NCBI RefSeq assembly: GCF_006575665.1
Contig: NZ_CP041253.1
Location: 2,331,001-2,395,000 of the forward strand
DNA length: 64,000 nucleotides
Reading direction: 5' to 3'
DNA from: Echinicola soli
Lineage (GTDB): Bacteria > Bacteroidota > Bacteroidia > Cytophagales > Cyclobacteriaceae
A program made the position numbers and the translations under genes. Below the pieces are notes generated by a model. The model searched no databases. It was not told the DNA's origin and saw nothing but the letters and a program-made list of their open reading frames with translations. Of the stretch, positions 15,397-21,017 are shown one piece after another. Within the stretch, counting starts at the first letter, position 1, and every line of letters begins with the position of its first letter.

Positions 15397-15816
15397 TTAT
15401 TTGCCTTGTGGAATCAAGGTCATCAATTCAGAGGCTCCGTCCAATAGCGTGAGTTTGTCCTTGCCCACTTTGAAGTTGGATACATTTTTTAGCGCATCCA
15501 AAAACTGGTTTTCACCATTTCCGGGGCACGCTTTTTTGGTCATGGCCCCAGGGGTCAAATTGATGTTGGTCCCGTTAAGTTCATAGCCGCCGCTGAATGA
15601 GTTGCAGCCAGTAGAGCCTGTAAGCTTGCCGTCATCGGTAAATCCCAAAGATGGCAGTCCGCCGCTGAACATGTCCAGACCACCTCCCATCAAAGAAGAG
15701 AGGACCCAGTTGTTTCCAGTGAGCATTTGGAGTGGGTTTAGATTAGAAACGGAACTGCAAGAACTAAAGCCTAAGAATAGGAAAAGCAATAGAGTGGATA
15801 ATTTCAACTGTTTCAT
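15397..15816 (-). CDS. META-domain lipoprotein (HslJ-like)
   Basis: 139 residues with a lipoprotein signal (LLFLFLGFSSC, Cys about residue 20). The META domain follows: NNWVLSSLMGG, then GKLTGSTGCNSFSGGYELNG and TKKACPG, the usual two-Cys pattern. HslJ/META proteins are envelope proteins linked to stress resistance; the exact role here is unknown. Upstream, about 310 bases separate it from the thr leader peptide, which reads the other way. Confidence 0.88.
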   Translation of the reverse strand: MKQLKLSTLLLFLFLGFSSCSSVSNLNPLQMLTGNNWVLSSLMGGGLDMFSGGLPSLGFTDDGKLTGSTGCNSFSGGYELNGTNINLTPGAMTKKACPGNGENQFLDALKNVSNFKVGKDKLTLLDGASELMTLIPQGK

Positions 15817-16063
15817 AGAAAAATAATTAAAAGGGTTGACGATTTATTGTTCAGGTGAAAAGTTAAAAAATAAACAGCACTTTCTTTCGATTATTTGGTG
15901 TTAATTTCTCTATTTATTGTAGAATTTAAATAATTCATGCGCTTAAAAATGATTTATGTGCCTAATAAAGTACCGCATTGGGCAGGAAAGATTAGGTAAA
16001 GTTCTGTCGCGACGGTGATGTTGTTTTGCTAAAGTTTTAATAAATGAAACTTTATATTGAGGA

Positions 16064-16098
16064 TTTGTTAACAAAAAATTTGGCATAATAGAAATTTG
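16064..16098 (+). promoter_or_regulatory. Candidate promoter of the thr leader and operon
   Basis: A TTTG at 16064-16067 and GAAATTTG at 16091-16098 (one mismatch to the Bacteroidota -7 element TAnnTTTG), 23 bases apart, lie about 30 bases before the leader peptide ATG. Transcription would start near 16105. AT-rich context makes chance matches easy, so this is tentative. The flanking bases 15817-16063 show nothing else I can name. Confidence 0.3.
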
Positions 16099-16126
16099 TG
16101 ATTAAGATTGTCCCATCAATAAGCAA

Positions 16127-16252
16127 ATGATGTTTAGCACAGTCAAAAACCATATCGTCATCGAACGCTCTTTTACACTTGAGCCAGTGGACTGCGCCAC
16201 TTTTTTTACCATCATTACCACTACCATTTTTACCACCACCATTACGGGGTAA
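16127..16252 (+). CDS. Threonine operon leader peptide
   Basis: A 41-codon frame (ATG 16127, alternative ATG 16130, TAA 16250) placed 94 bases before thrA. The start is MMFSTVKNHI; the last 17 residues, TFFTIITTTIFTTTITG, hold nine Thr and four Ile. Dense Thr/Ile codons just upstream of threonine biosynthesis genes are the hallmark of an attenuator leader such as E. coli ThrL, in which ribosomes stall when charged tRNA-Thr or tRNA-Ile is short. The resemblance is in design and tail composition, not in overall sequence. Codons 12-24 (IERSFTLEPVDCA) are not Thr-rich and may be structurally important RNA. Confidence 0.85.
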   Translation: MMFSTVKNHIVIERSFTLEPVDCATFFTIITTTIFTTTITG

Positions 16253-16304
16253 TCCCGTGTCTATCTATTATATTGCCGCTAATTCCGGTCCGCTTTCAGC
16301 GGAC
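16244..16304 (+). promoter_or_regulatory. Thr attenuator hairpins
   Basis: Two hairpins follow the Thr/Ile codons: ACGGG/CCCGT at 16244-16258, overlapping the last leader codons, and GTCCGCT/AGCGGAC at 16288-16304 with a 3-base loop. Bases 16276-16280 (CCGCT) can pair with 16298-16302 instead, so an exclusive alternative fold exists, as expected for attenuation. The second hairpin lacks a downstream U-run, so a classical intrinsic terminator is not clear. The effect could be on translation of thrA, 43 bases further on. Confidence 0.5.
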
Positions 16305-16346
16305 GTATAAATCCATTAACAAGCCATTAAAAAAATACTCATTTTC

Positions 16347-18794
16347 ATGAAAATCATAAAATTCGGAGGATCATCCATCGCAAATTATGAGAACATCCAA
16401 AAGGTGTTTTCCATAGTGGAGCAGAAGTCAGGAAAGGAAGCGTTTGCCCTGGTGTTTTCAGCTTTTGGTGGAGTCACTGAACAATTGCTACAATGTGCCA
16501 ATATCGCCCAGCAAAGTGAGGAAAGTTACCATACCATCCTTCAGGAACTTGAAAAAAGGCACTTAGAGATTGCCAAGAAGCTAGTGCCGGTGCAGCAGCA
16601 ATCCACCGCACTGACATTTGTGAAGGTCCGATTCAATGAATTGGGCGACTTGTTCCACGGGATCTACTTGATAAAAGAATGTTCTAATAGGACAATGGAC
16701 TATGTCCTCAGCTTTGGAGAGCGGCTGTCCAATTTTATTTTGGCAGCAGGCCTTCAGGCCAAAGGTATATCCACCACCTATGTGGATGCCCGTGACCTGG
16801 TAAAAACAGATGGTCGGTTTGGTCATGCCAAGGTGAATTTTAAAAGCACCAATAAGCTGATCCAAAGTTATTTTGAAAAGCACGAGGGGATCAAGGTGAT
16901 CACCGGTTTTATTGGCTCCACCGATAAGGGTGAAACCACCACAGTGGGCAGAAGTGGGTCCGATTATACAGCATCTATTTTTGCCGCGGCGCTTGGAGCG
17001 GAGCAGGTAGAGATATGGACGGATGTTTCCGGTGTGATGACGGCAGATCCAAGATTAGTGTATACCGCATTTACGATTCCTCAGCTGAGCTATAACGAGG
17101 CCATGGAACTTTCGCACTTTGGGGCAAAAGTAGTGTTCCCGGCGACCATGCAGCCGGCCATGAAGGAGGATATTCCGATATACATCAAAAATACGTTTAA
17201 GCCTGAGGAAGAAGGCACACGGATCAGCAAAGAGTCAGGAGAGGGGAAAATCATCAAGGGAATTTCCTCTATGGACAATATCTCGATCCTCAACGTACAG
17301 GGACCAGGATTGGTAGAGGTCGTAGGGGTGAGCCAGCGTTTCTTCGGCACTTTGGCCAACAATGGCATCAATATCATCCTGATCAGTCAGGCTTCTTCTG
17401 AGCATAGCATTTGTGTGGCGATTGCTTCAAAGGATGCCAGTCGAGCCAAGTCTGTGATCGAGGAGGAGTTCAGGTACGAAATCCAAAGTGGTGAGATGGC
17501 CGAGATCGAGGTGGTTCCTGATATGGCGGTCATCGCCGTGGTGGGCGAAAATATGCAGCATAACCCAGGTGCCAGTGGACGGATGTTCCAGGCGTTGGGC
17601 AGAAATAATGTCAATGTGGCCGCCATCGCCCAGGGAAGCTCCGAACTAAATATCTCGGCAGTGATCACGCAGGCAGACTTGCAAAAAGCCCTGAATGCAT
17701 TGCATGAGGCATTCTTCCTGTCCGATTACAAGGTCCTCCATGTCTTTTTGGTAGGAGTGGGCTTGATAGGCAAGGCTTTGACCAAAATGATCAACAACCA
17801 GCTTGGAAAGCTGCAAGAGGAAAATATGCTGGACATCCAAATCCATGGAATGGCCAATTCCCGCTATATGAAGTTCCATGAAGATGGTTTTGATCTGGCG
17901 ACAGTGGGGCCACCGGATGAAAATGATGAGCCGATGGACATGGGTAAGTTTATTGGCACGATGACAGAGATGAATTTTTCCAATTCTGTTTTTGTAGACT
18001 GTACCGCCAGTCAGGATGTAGCGGATATCTATGAGCAAATCCTTGATTCCAAAGTAGGTATCGTAACCCCAAATAAGAAAGCCAACTCGGGTCCTTTGGA
18101 TACCTATAAGAAACTTAAAAAATTGGCTGGCCAACGTGGCGTAAGGTTTTTCTATGAGACCAATGTGGCCGCTGGTCTGCCGGTGATCAATACCCTGCAG
18201 GACTTGATGTTAAGTGGCGATCATGTGCACCGCATCGAAGCCGTGCTGAGTGGGTCGATGAACTATATATTCAGCGAACTGGAAAAAGGCATGCCGTTCA
18301 GCGAAGTGGTGGCCCAGGCCAAAGAAAAAGGCTATACCGAGCCAGATCCAAGGGATGATTTGAGCGGTATGGATGTGGCGCGCAAAATCCTGATCCTTGG
18401 TCGTGAAGCCGGGCAGGACCTGCACTTTGAAGATGTGGATATCCAGAGTATGGTACCGGAGGATTGTGAGGATGCGGCTTCTGTCCCGGAGTTTTTCGAG
18501 AAGTTGCAAAAGCATGACGGTCATTTCCAGCAGCTCTTGGATGAAGCCAAAGCCAAAGGTGAAAAGCTCCGTTTTATGGCGACTTTAGAGAATGGAAAGG
18601 CCAAAGTAGGGCTGAATTCCCTGGATAGTGAGCATCCGTTCTATACCCTTAAGGGCAGTGATAACATGATATTGTTTACCACAGAGCGCTATAATGACTT
18701 CCCAATGATCGTAAGAGGTCCTGGGGCAGGTGCAGATGTGACTGCAGCCGGGGTATTTGCCGATATTATCAGGCTAGGAAATTATTCAAGATGA
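16347..18794 (+). CDS. thrA: Bifunctional aspartokinase / homoserine dehydrogenase I
   Basis: 815 residues, the normal size of ThrA. The aspartokinase domain comes first (MKIIKFGGSSIAN, FGERLSNFILAAGL, TTTVGRSGSDYTASIFAAAL, WTDVSGVMTADPRLV), followed by two ACT domains (about 315-460) and the homoserine dehydrogenase domain (FLVGVGLIGKALTKM, TPNKKANSGPLD, ETNVAAGLPVINTLQDL, EAVLSGSMNYIFSEL). It catalyses the first and third steps from aspartate to threonine and methionine. It is headed by the Thr-rich leader and overlaps thrB by 4 bases (ATGA). Confidence 0.98.
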   Translation: MKIIKFGGSSIANYENIQKVFSIVEQKSGKEAFALVFSAFGGVTEQLLQCANIAQQSEESYHTILQELEKRHLEIAKKLVPVQQQSTALTFVKVRFNELGDLFHGIYLIKECSNRTMDYVLSFGERLSNFILAAGLQAKGISTTYVDARDLVKTDGRFGHAKVNFKSTNKLIQSYFEKHEGIKVITGFIGSTDKGETTTVGRSGSDYTASIFAAALGAEQVEIWTDVSGVMTADPRLVYTAFTIPQLSYNEAMELSHFGAKVVFPATMQPAMKEDIPIYIKNTFKPEEEGTRISKESGEGKIIKGISSMDNISILNVQGPGLVEVVGVSQRFFGTLANNGINIILISQASSEHSICVAIASKDASRAKSVIEEEFRYEIQSGEMAEIEVVPDMAVIAVVGENMQHNPGASGRMFQALGRNNVNVAAIAQGSSELNISAVITQADLQKALNALHEAFFLSDYKVLHVFLVGVGLIGKALTKMINNQLGKLQEENMLDIQIHGMANSRYMKFHEDGFDLATVGPPDENDEPMDMGKFIGTMTEMNFSNSVFVDCTASQDVADIYEQILDSKVGIVTPNKKANSGPLDTYKKLKKLAGQRGVRFFYETNVAAGLPVINTLQDLMLSGDHVHRIEAVLSGSMNYIFSELEKGMPFSEVVAQAKEKGYTEPDPRDDLSGMDVARKILILGREAGQDLHFEDVDIQSMVPEDCEDAASVPEFFEKLQKHDGHFQQLLDEAKAKGEKLRFMATLENGKAKVGLNSLDSEHPFYTLKGSDNMILFTTERYNDFPMIVRGPGAGADVTAAGVFADIIRLGNYSR

Positions 18795-19726
18795 AAAAAG
18801 TAACTGCTTTTGCCCCCGCTACGGTGGCCAACGTTTCTTGTGGATTTGATATTTTGGGCTTTGCTGTAGAGGAAATGGGGGACAAGGTCACTGTTTCCTT
18901 GGCAGATGAGCCGGGAGTGCGTGTTGTTAAGATAGAAGGTGATGGCGGGAGGCTACCGTTTGATGTAGACAAAAATACTTGCGGAGTCGCCTTAAAGGCT
19001 TTTTCGGCCGCCATAGATTATAAAGGTGGATTGGAAGTAGAACTGTACAAGGGCTTGCCACTTGGTAGCGGTATGGGATCAAGTGCCGCCAGTTCTGTCG
19101 CCGCTTTGGAGGCCGCCAATCAATTACTAGGTAATCCGCTGGATAAAAAGGCTTTGCTGCCCTTTGCCATGAAGGCAGAAGGAGTAGCCTGTGGTGCAGA
19201 GCACGCCGATAATGTGGCCCCATCGCTGTTGGGAGGATTTGTGCTGATCAGGAGTTATCATCCCTTGGATGTGACCAAGCTTCACGTCCCAAAAGGCTTG
19301 TACTGCACCCTGGTGCATCCACATTTGGAGTTAAATACTGCGGATTCCAGGAGTGTACTGCGGCACCAGGTGCCACTAAAAGATGCTATTATCCAATCCG
19401 GAAATATTGCCGGGCTGGTAGCGGGACTTTATCAGGAAGATATGGGCCTGATCAGCAGGTCGCTACAGGACGTGATTGCCGAGCCTTCCAGGTCTGTTTT
19501 GATCCCTTGTTTTGATGAAATAAAAACTGCTATTAAGGAAATAGGAGCGTTAGGTGCAGGGATTTCAGGTTCCGGGCCTACGACCTTTATCCTTGCTCCC
19601 AGCAGGGAAATTGCCGAAAAGGCCAGTGAGATTTGCCAAGAAGTATTTGATAAAATAGGACTGGAAGTAGACCTGTATGTTTCAGCTGTAAACACCAAGG
19701 GGACCTACGTCATCAATAAAGCATAA
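18791..19726 (+). CDS. thrB: Homoserine kinase
   Basis: 311 residues, GHMP kinase family. Motifs are VTAFAPATVANVSCGFDILG (motif 1), the ATP loop GLPLGSGMGSSAASSVAAL (about residues 89-107) and GAGISGSGPTTFIL near the C-terminus. It phosphorylates homoserine. The start codon overlaps the thrA stop, and thrC begins one base after its own stop, so the three genes are tightly coupled. Confidence 0.98.
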   Translation: MKKVTAFAPATVANVSCGFDILGFAVEEMGDKVTVSLADEPGVRVVKIEGDGGRLPFDVDKNTCGVALKAFSAAIDYKGGLEVELYKGLPLGSGMGSSAASSVAALEAANQLLGNPLDKKALLPFAMKAEGVACGAEHADNVAPSLLGGFVLIRSYHPLDVTKLHVPKGLYCTLVHPHLELNTADSRSVLRHQVPLKDAIIQSGNIAGLVAGLYQEDMGLISRSLQDVIAEPSRSVLIPCFDEIKTAIKEIGALGAGISGSGPTTFILAPSREIAEKASEICQEVFDKIGLEVDLYVSAVNTKGTYVINKA

Positions 19727-19727
19727 C

Positions 19728-21017
19728 ATGAAATTCTACAGTACAAATAATAAAAGCCACAAGGTTTCCCTAAAAGAAGCGGTCATCAAAGGTCTGGCGC
19801 CTGATCAAGGGCTATATATGCCAGAGCAGATTCCACCATTGTCTGCTGATTTTATTGCTCAATTGCCCAATCTTTCCTTTCAGGAGATTGGCTATGAGGT
19901 GATAGGTGCCTTGTTTGGTGAAGACCTTAGCAGTGATCATATCAAGGAACTGGTCAATCACACATTGACATTTGATGCTCCCTTGGTAAAGGTAGAGGAT
20001 GGCGTTTATACATTGGAGCTGTTTCATGGGCCTACCCTGGCTTTTAAGGATTTTGGAGCGCGTTTTTGTTCCAAATTGATGAACCTTTTGGTAAGCAATG
20101 AAAAGGTGAGGGTATTGGTAGCGACTTCAGGTGACACTGGAAGTGCCGTGGCCAATGGTTTTTACAAAGTGCCGAATGTCGAGGTGATTATTTTGTACCC
20201 CTCGGGCAAAGTAAGTACGCTTCAGGAGAAACAGTTTACGACCTTGGGAGAGAATATCACGGCCCTTGAGGTGGACGGAGTTTTTGATGACTGTCAGCAA
20301 ATGGTAAAACAGGCCTTTCTGGACAAGGACTTGAATGCAAGAATGCTGCTGACATCTGCCAATTCCATTAATATTGCCCGATGGATCCCGCAGTGCCTGT
20401 ATTATTTCTATGCGTATAGCAGATTGCCGAAGGGACAGGGGAAGGTGGTTTTTTCGGTACCTAGTGGAAATTTTGGAAACATTGCTGCAGGAATGCTTGC
20501 TGAGCGAATGGGCTTGCCGATCGACCATTTTGTGGCAGCTACCAATGTCAATAAAATCGTTCCGGATTTTCTAAAAGGCGTTCCTTTCCGGCCAAGACCA
20601 TCCTTGCAAACCATCAGCAACAGCATGGATGTGGGCAATCCCAGTAATTTTTACCGTTTGCTGGACCTGTATGGCGATGAGTCCAACCTCAAAGAACGGG
20701 TAAAAGGATACTTCTTTGATGATGCCACGACCAGAGAGGCCATGGCTGAGGTAAAAGCAGCTACGGGCTATTTGATGGAGCCACATGGTGCAGTGGCATA
20801 TTTGGGATTGAAGACATTCCGGGAAGAGCATGGAGGTTATACCGGCGTGTTTTTGGAGACAGCCCATCCTGGTAAGTTTGGGGATGTCGTGGAAGCCGTG
20901 CATCAGCAAAAGGTGGAACTGCCCGAGCGCTTGGCCGCATTCTTTAAAGGCCAGAAAAAGTCCCAACTCATAGCCAATGATTATGAGGAGTTTAAAGACT
21001 ATTTGCTGTCAAAGTAG
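19728..21017 (+). CDS. thrC: Threonine synthase
   Basis: 429 residues, PLP-dependent fold type II. The PLP lysine lies in HGPTLAFKDFGARF (about residues 104-117). VLVATSGDTGSAVANGF and the phosphate loop VPSGNFGNIAAGMLA match threonine synthases of the E. coli/yeast class, with their N-terminal domain (MKFYSTNNKSHKVSLKEAV). It converts O-phosphohomoserine to threonine. It is the last gene of the thr operon, and a hairpin 32 bases after the stop probably ends the transcript. Confidence 0.98.
   Translation: MKFYSTNNKSHKVSLKEAVIKGLAPDQGLYMPEQIPPLSADFIAQLPNLSFQEIGYEVIGALFGEDLSSDHIKELVNHTLTFDAPLVKVEDGVYTLELFHGPTLAFKDFGARFCSKLMNLLVSNEKVRVLVATSGDTGSAVANGFYKVPNVEVIILYPSGKVSTLQEKQFTTLGENITALEVDGVFDDCQQMVKQAFLDKDLNARMLLTSANSINIARWIPQCLYYFYAYSRLPKGQGKVVFSVPSGNFGNIAAGMLAERMGLPIDHFVAATNVNKIVPDFLKGVPFRPRPSLQTISNSMDVGNPSNFYRLLDLYGDESNLKERVKGYFFDDATTREAMAEVKAATGYLMEPHGAVAYLGLKTFREEHGGYTGVFLETAHPGKFGDVVEAVHQQKVELPERLAAFFKGQKKSQLIANDYEEFKDYLLSK

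Follow-up and report, generated by a model that had tools for sequence, protein, structure and literature searches.

The thrABC operon in the window, the whole stretch of 64,000 nucleotides of Echinicola DNA analysed here, is preceded by a Thr/Ile-rich leader, and comparison with related genomes provides good evidence that this leader is real and conserved and that it represents an unusual attenuator class. Its very probable function is to detect a lack of threonine by ribosome stalling, with isoleucine perhaps serving as an additional signal. Judged from the sequences compared, the chances appear about even that the leader is a ribosome-mediated, threonine-responsive attenuator of thrABC which has no U-run terminator after the leader and in which the off-step is carried out by a hairpin at the stop codon (P1) through a CATATC-like element and a further factor. 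Textbook attenuation relies on intrinsic terminators; here the job would seemingly be done without one, and for two amino acids, threonine and histidine.

Leader peptide and gene context

The genome carrying the window (5.55 Mb, a single contig) belongs to Echinicola, a genus of the Cyclobacteriaceae within the Bacteroidota, and the leader frame upstream of its thrABC genes reads MMFSTVKNHIVIERSFTLEPVDCATFFTIITTTIFTTTITG (Table 1). The identities of thrA, thrB and thrC were each assigned by a score above an NCBIfam equivalog cut-off. The initial annotation of this DNA had described a Thr/Ile-rich 41-codon frame before thrABC and two hairpins downstream of it; the codon count and the predicted folds of P1 and of a second hairpin, P3, bear out both statements. 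Its proposal of a Thr/Ile leader-peptide attenuator likewise stands, since the frame and its Thr codons are conserved in relatives; a chance ORF was ruled out on the same grounds. In all 11 same-genus genomes compared, each of which has ThrA, the leader is exactly 41 codons long. Conservation within this genus is 0.91 for codons 1 to 8, 0.58 for codons 9 to 20 and 0.83 for the Thr run, so that the first half of the peptide, initially characterized as conserved-looking, deserves this description for its first eight codons only. Moreover, substitutions in codons 1 to 24 are about evenly distributed over the three codon positions (481/437/407), and thus no selection on the first half as a peptide is visible.

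The TTTG sequence upstream of the frame was named a possible -33 element after the known promoter consensus, and the region around it (16076-16085) has a conservation of 0.88 in the 11 same-genus genomes. Among the 43 leaders numbered below L050, the -7 box reads TAAGATTG in 27 and TAGAATTG in 13, with neither form in the remaining three; TAAGATTG is similar to the TAnnTTTG consensus given in the accessible text of PMC9723704. A rough look at the other aspartate kinase/homoserine dehydrogenase matches (L002-L004), where the scanned stretch may overlap those genes, revealed no leaders, and the plasmid collection searched yielded no match.

Table 1. Position of the leader elements and of the thrABC genes within the window.
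Feature	Position	Strand	Remarks
Possible -33 element, TTTG	16079-16082	+	20 nt 5' of the -7 box
-7 promoter box, TAAGATTG	16103-16110	+	16 nt before the leader start codon; genus conservation 0.98
Leader peptide ORF	16127-16252	+	41 codons, ending TTTITG-stop; between the conserved promoter box and thrABC
Early CATATC copy	16151-16156	+	Exact match inside the leader ORF
Hairpin AGTGG-ACTGCG-CCACT, then TTTTTT	16186-16207	+	Inside the leader ORF, 5' of most of the Thr run; pause- or terminator-like
Control codons	16199-16249	+	9 Thr and 4 Ile in the last 17 codons
P1 hairpin, ACGGG-GTAAT-CCCGT	16244-16258 (core)	+	Predicted fold; stop codon in the loop
TATATTGCC	16269-16277	+	Local form of the CATATC/CATATNGCC element; 10 nt 3' of P1; 4/6 match to CATATC
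P2, GCCG:CGGU	16275-16289	+	Weak alternative pairing overlapping P3; about 4 bp (16275-16278 with 16286-16289), by inspection
P3 hairpin, GTCCGCT-TTC-AGCGGAC	16288-16304	+	Predicted fold; no U-run behind
thrA, bifunctional aspartate kinase/homoserine dehydrogenase I	16347-18794	+	NF006959, 1056.6 bits, cut-off 726
thrB, homoserine kinase	18791-19726	+	NF002288 and TIGR00191 above cut-off
thrC, threonine synthase	19728-21017	+	TIGR00260 above cut-off

Distribution of Thr/Ile-rich leaders upstream of thrA

A ThrA match was found in 125 of 148 family genomes (E 1e-150) and in 153 of 198 phylum genomes (E 1e-120), and a scan of genome contigs gave matches at 89-90% identity in Echinicola pacifica and E. 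arenosa. Part of the ThrA-matched genomes provided 177 non-duplicate upstream regions (L005 and L006, duplicates of L012 and L011, were left out), and a Thr/Ile-rich leader, defined by a home-made Thr/Ile score of at least 7, was called in 92 of them. These comprised 36 of the 37 closest loci, 36 of 80 others from the family and 20 of 60 from the phylum sample, the latter falling in 7 of 21 family labels. The Thr leader is hence no oddity of one genome. By this score 85 of the 177 regions, among them L062-L065 and L067-L082, have no leader, the score being known to miss some, such as L017, in which the stop codon is lost from the loop, and L110, in which the module was seen by eye.

When the 79 non-redundant leaders were split by script, 7 were found to have a hairpin with a strong U-run and 72, including that of the window, to lack it; by eye, however, three of the 72 (L083, L100 and L128) would fall into the U-run class, and L125 combines a stop hairpin with a later T-run hairpin. 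A second set, used for P1 and CATATC, consisted of 76 loci, 66 after redundancy removal, and 63 when L123, L125 and L140 are also dropped. Since these sets were preselected for a stop-near hairpin and against by-eye U-run loci, the count over 79 leaders is the fairer one; throughout, the loci share ancestry and the counts are not independent trials. An anchored alignment was possible for all 56 loci of the core group (L001, L007-L061). As MAFFT could not bring C-first and G-first hairpins into register, the counts rest on scripts. Trained on 24 core thr sequences, a covariance model (R1) of the module scored the C-first thr modules and the his modules described below only weakly, with six his loci at E 0.08-0.8 through short matches that skip the hairpin. 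Classic Thr/Ile leaders with a U-run were seen in the family and phylum samples at L066, L083, L084, L100, L103, L122, L127, L134, L138 and L141, one example encoding MSMLTTITHITTITAGAAMGMV before its stop codon.

A hairpin at the stop codon and a CATATC-like element

A hairpin at the stop codon (Watson-Crick, at least 5 bp) is present in 55 of the 72 leaders without U-run, compared to 5.0 in dinucleotide shuffles, and in none of the 7 U-run leaders (0.1 expected). Under this strict window 17 of the 72 have no P1, and in several the hairpin ends before the stop codon. A P1 was called in 76 leaders; 64 of them carry the stop codon in its loop and 6 in its 3' arm, and in the others the stop codon follows the hairpin (4) or overlaps it (2). 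The P1 calls comprise 18 stem pairs. Many are extended or shortened variants of ACGGG/CCCGT and ACCCC/GGGGT, so that which strand is G-rich and which C-rich differs between clades. Within the genus, P1 and TATATTGCC are both 100% conserved and the spacer between them 0.96 (11 genomes). The 76-nt piece containing P1 and P3 folds with -19.6 kcal/mol (z -1.64), a value reached by 13 of 200 shuffles. Covariation, which had been proposed at the outset as a check on this region, was found for P3, where 27 of 28 cells are paired across four near relatives, with both sides changed in two of the pairs; taken alone this is suggestive, because 38 of 500 shuffles reach that score (an alignment of 19 sequences was out of register at P3 and was discarded in favor of these four). 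P1, in contrast, is nearly invariant within the core clade and shows no covariation there. By eye, the P1 loop could form a pseudoknot with ATTGCC in the genus, but this idea was dropped since other clades do not retain the loop sequence.

At 7-11 nt 3' of P1, CATATC (at least 5/6) occurs in 44 of 66 leaders of the hairpin-selected set, compared to 3.8 in shuffles, while a wide window measured from the stop codon gives a weaker contrast (45 of 72 versus 24.6 in shuffles). Of the 76 loci, 48 have a match of at least 5/6, and 45 of these place it 8-10 nt from P1. In the other 28 hairpin-bearing leaders the match is at most 4/6, as it is in the window's own genus (4/6) and in L047, L048, L050, L053, L054, L056 and L057 of the core group. 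Since the sequence of P1 changes and its distance to CATATC hardly does, we infer that P1 acts on RNA polymerase. Such an arrangement invites comparison with hairpin-stabilized pauses, of which that at E. coli hisL has its hairpin about 10 nt from the RNA 3' end (accessible text of PMC9291695); at 14-16 nt, however, the distance from P1 to the end of CATATC is longer than that, which speaks against the comparison.

An early, exact copy of CATATC occurs in 13 of the 63 non-redundant leaders without U-run, compared to 2.1 in shuffles, and is positioned 18-24 nt after the start codon in 10 of the 13 and 5' of it in the other three. It was found in none of 11 U-run leaders, for which shuffles predict only 0.5. 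Second copies close to the leader start codon were noted at L099, L104, L106, L113, L121, L130, L146 and L147. In this minority of leaders the early copy is compatible with a pacing pause.

The his and ilvD leaders

A His-rich leader is located 5' of hisG in 14 of 16 relatives with HisG, and in 13 of these 14 leaders CATATC (at least 5/6) follows the stop-codon hairpin at 8-9 nt. The hisG leader of the genome carrying the window (L187, about 2,934.7 kb), encoding MNSSKPNIIAMPFFTVCPTATVHHFHHSS before its stop codon, has the stop-loop hairpin module as at thr, with a P1 of the form ATTCCTCC-TAA-GGAGGAAT, an 8 nt spacer and then CATATCGCC. L187 and its relatives share with the thr leader the stop codon in the hairpin loop, the spacer of 8-9 nt, CATATCGCC and the missing U-run, and differ from it in their His codons and their own P1 arms; a hairpin after CATATC, corresponding to P3, is clear in some his loci and was not scored in others. 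As 11 of the 14 His leaders belong to one genus, the support from his amounts to three lineages, in addition to which the module was seen by eye in L237, from another family. In a class-wide sample of 29 other HisG loci (L224-L251), a His-rich ORF precedes hisG at 26, of which 22 look by eye like the U-run class. A search of the window's own genome, confined to exact CATATCGCCC and thus to neither motif variants nor the thr form, gave 16 sites compared to 2 for a reversed control pattern; among these exact sites only the his leader has a strong hairpin (8 bp) at the matching distance, and four others have weak hairpins at 6, 6, 7 and 12 nt.

The ilvD leader of the same genome (L210, about 2,420.6 kb) encodes MFRIVSVINLIVILIYNCK before its stop codon and has a textbook U-run hairpin together with an apparent antiterminator. 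The hairpin, GTGCCTCA-TATCG-TGAGGCAC-TTTTTTTT, is present in 11 of 11 genus genomes. Missing U-runs are therefore no genome-wide habit. Taken together with the U-run loci at his, the ilvD hairpin indicates that two designs coexist in one genome, and that both occur at one operon across lineages. We tentatively propose, at somewhat less than even probability, a distinct attenuator class of Bacteroidota in which a stop-codon hairpin 8-10 nt from CATATC would replace the U-run at thr and his and alternate with classic terminators. If so, CATATC would represent a new type of signal, linked to a hairpin, at which the Bacteroidota RNA polymerase pauses or terminates, and its early copy in some leaders would pace the polymerase for the first ribosome.

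Proposed mechanism

Thr codons are found at the stop codon of the thrA leader, His codons at hisG and Ile, Val and Leu codons at ilvD, and the simplest account of this match is that the leader ribosome reads threonine. Among 63 leaders the Thr fraction is 0.86 at codon -2 relative to the stop, 0.59 at -4, 0.83 at -5 and 0.51 at -6, and drops to about 0.1 from codon -15 on, while Ile has its maximum (65%) at codon -3. The sensor would thus consist of the Thr codons within about 12 codons of the stop in the translated 41-codon leader, a step well supported by the comparison. When threonine is plentiful, the ribosome would finish and leave, so that P1 could fold just behind RNA polymerase; P1 would then pause or hold the polymerase via the CATATC-like element, whose distance from P1 hardly varies, and transcription would be ended by a factor such as Rho, whose involvement is suggested by the missing U-run. 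Rho could load on the RNA of the control codons, which is C-rich and G-poor (29% C, 8% G), once this is free of ribosomes. When threonine is short, the ribosome would stall on the P1-proximal Thr codons, P1 would remain unfolded and thrABC would be transcribed. Given the size of its footprint, a ribosome with its A site at any of codons -5 to -2 would sit over the P1 5' arm and cover the C-rich stretch as well. The same module would be in use at hisG.

The last Thr codon has a median position of -2 in the 72 leaders without U-run, compared to -8 in the 7 U-run leaders, a position that agrees better with an occluded P1 than with an antiterminator arm left free. Because Thr codons reaching to -2 would put a stalled ribosome on the P1 5' arm, P1 more plausibly turns the operon off, with stalling as the ON state. 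This anatomy does not, however, settle the sign of P1, since a ribosome at the stop codon covers P1 as well. In addition, two further observations count against the occlusion of P1: the distal Thr codons (-9 to -17 in the window) would stall ribosomes 5' of P1 and leave it free, and P3 is widely conserved yet without a clear task in this model.

P3 and alternative explanations

In 58 of 63 loci the best hairpin of the P3 region scores higher than its shuffled versions do on average; 57 different stems are represented, and the folding z falls below -1 in 34 of the 63. The sequence conservation of P3 within the genus is only 0.68. The alternative pairing reported in the initial annotation is present, although it is limited to the few base pairs of P2; P2-like GCC..GGC pairings recur in relatives by eye. 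These observations are central to the strongest rival of P1 occlusion, a synchronizing pause, in which P1 and the CATATC-like element would couple the polymerase to the leading ribosome and the choice would be made downstream, by P2 (GCC:GGC) versus P3 or by ribosome pushing, with P1 being a neutral or an ON element. The recurrence of P3 with an overlapping P2 and the enrichment of the early CATATC copy in leaders of the P1 class agree with such a pause, as do the hairpin-linked leader pauses known from E. coli hisL and trpL (accessible text of PMC9291695). We nevertheless consider it unlikely, for the P2 and P3 strands are free whether the ribosome stalls or reaches the stop codon, so that nothing evident is left to choose between them, P2 has only 3-4 bp and P3 is without a U-run in the window.

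An attenuator of the ordinary ThrL type, with P3 as an intrinsic terminator and a degenerate U-tract, appears improbable. Although P3 is conserved and placed between the leader and the gene, a test for a hairpin followed by a T-rich tail was passed by only 1 of the 63 leaders of the P1 class, compared to 10 of 12 of the U-run class, which had been assigned by eye, so that the contrast is partly built in. U-run Thr leaders do exist in relatives, and T-rich sequence follows P3 by eye at six loci (L020, L026, L040, L116, L119 and L121, with L116 outside the 63). In the window, however, P3 is followed by GTATAAATCC. The U-run is thus missing, as had been recognized when the mechanism was initially left open, and a ribosome at the stop codon would have no visible antiterminator arm to mask.

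The missing U-run, the motif at a near-fixed distance between two hairpins and the stop-to-thrA distance, with a median of 90 nt, could also be reconciled with a post-transcriptional role, in which the leader would govern thrA translation or the cleavage or stability of the mRNA, with P3 as a protective 5' hairpin. There would be little to sequester, however, as the last 35 nt before thrA are 74% A/T (63 loci) and the stretch from P3 to 16340 is unpaired in the predicted fold, which ends before the thrA start codon; moreover, a transcriptional attenuator class exists at the same gene in relatives. We therefore give post-transcriptional control little credence. In the minimum-energy fold a long-range helix is formed between the 5' end and the CATATC region.

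The hairpin and T-run inside the leader ORF, to which the initial annotation makes no reference, may be a pause, a terminator suppressed by translation or a by-product of Phe codons. Suppression of a terminator by leader translation is the pyrBI principle, and an intrinsic terminator of this kind, which the Thr run would only modulate, could account for the enrichment in core leaders of a hairpin with a T-rich stretch (19 of 44, compared to 10.0 in shuffles) and of a T-run of at least six (26 of 44, compared to 9.7). The hairpin, however, is weak when taken alone (z -0.93), the combination is missing in 25 of the 44 core leaders and present in only 4 of 37 others, with the T-run in 2 of the 37, and the T-run may simply reflect Phe codons. 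Furthermore, the element lies 5' of nearly all Thr codons, so that stalling at these cannot affect the polymerase that made them, and we regard control by it as quite improbable. A DNA operator, at which a repressor would bind the palindrome ACGGGGTAATCCCGT and the peptide would be incidental, is very improbable in spite of the dyad symmetry and its invariance in the genus, as the dyad sequence differs fully between clades and between thr and his, yet stays at the stop codon of an ORF that matches the amino acid.

Relation to known attenuators

P1 occlusion, which we prefer to these alternatives, shares with E. coli ThrL the Thr/Ile-rich leader directly upstream of thrABC and the idea of ribosome stalling. 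The claim that exactly this logic operates here is not supported, since the peptide of the window is longer, its stop codon lies in a hairpin loop, Thr codons extend to -2, a CATATC-like element is present, and no U-run hairpin follows the leader. A search with Rfam over the window at the gathering threshold, and over 16000-16400 at E up to 10, detected no Thr leader (RF00506, which we take to be the family of the E. coli ThrL attenuator), and the thrABC leader module is not matched by any Rfam leader family. An analogy may be drawn with E. coli tnaC, where a ribosome stalled at the end of the leader ORF controls the access of Rho, with tryptophan as the ligand and no known hairpin where the ORF ends. 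Among the phylum sample, the classic U-run Thr leaders (L066, L084, L127, L134 and L138) have the gene and the Thr/Ile codons in common with the window and differ in their hairpin and U-run after the stop codon, in a last Thr codon about eight codons away and in having no stop hairpin. Earlier attenuation surveys by Vitreschak, Lyubetsky, Seliverstov and colleagues may include some Thr leaders of Bacteroidota.

Leader-peptide attenuation in Bacteroidota has been suggested before, according to the accessible texts of PMC9723704 and PMC7366714. In Flavobacterium psychrophilum, clues to it were reported upstream of amino-acid operons, and conserved 5' elements that gave no Rfam hits were described at several genes, pheA and hisG included (PMC9723704); the main text of this paper has no mention of threonine or thrA. 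In B. thetaiotaomicron, sORFs were described in long 5' UTRs (PMC7366714). Bacteroid-trp (RF01692) is, as is proposed for the leader of the window, a leader-peptide attenuator of Bacteroidetes (accessible text of PMC2864571). Infernal with stricter filters found no match to it in the window's own genome and matches in 2 of 80 class genomes; these, L222 and L223, have by eye a short Trp-containing ORF and a U-run hairpin and, unlike the window, no CATATC module. NusA alters pausing at thrL, where compensatory mutants gave no clear answer (accessible text of PMC9291695), and the terms 'Bacteroid' and 'threonine' are absent from the main text of PMC2965389. Among the literature matches listed, which comprised titles and abstract openings and mostly lay outside subscription journals, no work on Thr leaders of Bacteroidota could be identified and no description of a stop-loop hairpin with a spaced CATATC element was found; few such leaders thus appear in the literature searched. 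Together, the stop-loop hairpin and spaced CATATC at thr and his suggest a little-known variant of the classic attenuation switch. Since classes with and without a U-run occur at the same gene in related bacteria, ribosome control of the polymerase could be tested by swapping elements between them, and such swaps could show whether it is Rho or a pause element that makes up for the missing U-run.

Divergent from the thr promoter, a small ORF on the minus strand (15397-15816), beginning with MKQLKLSTLLLFLFLGFSSCSS, encodes a secreted- or lipoprotein-like product.
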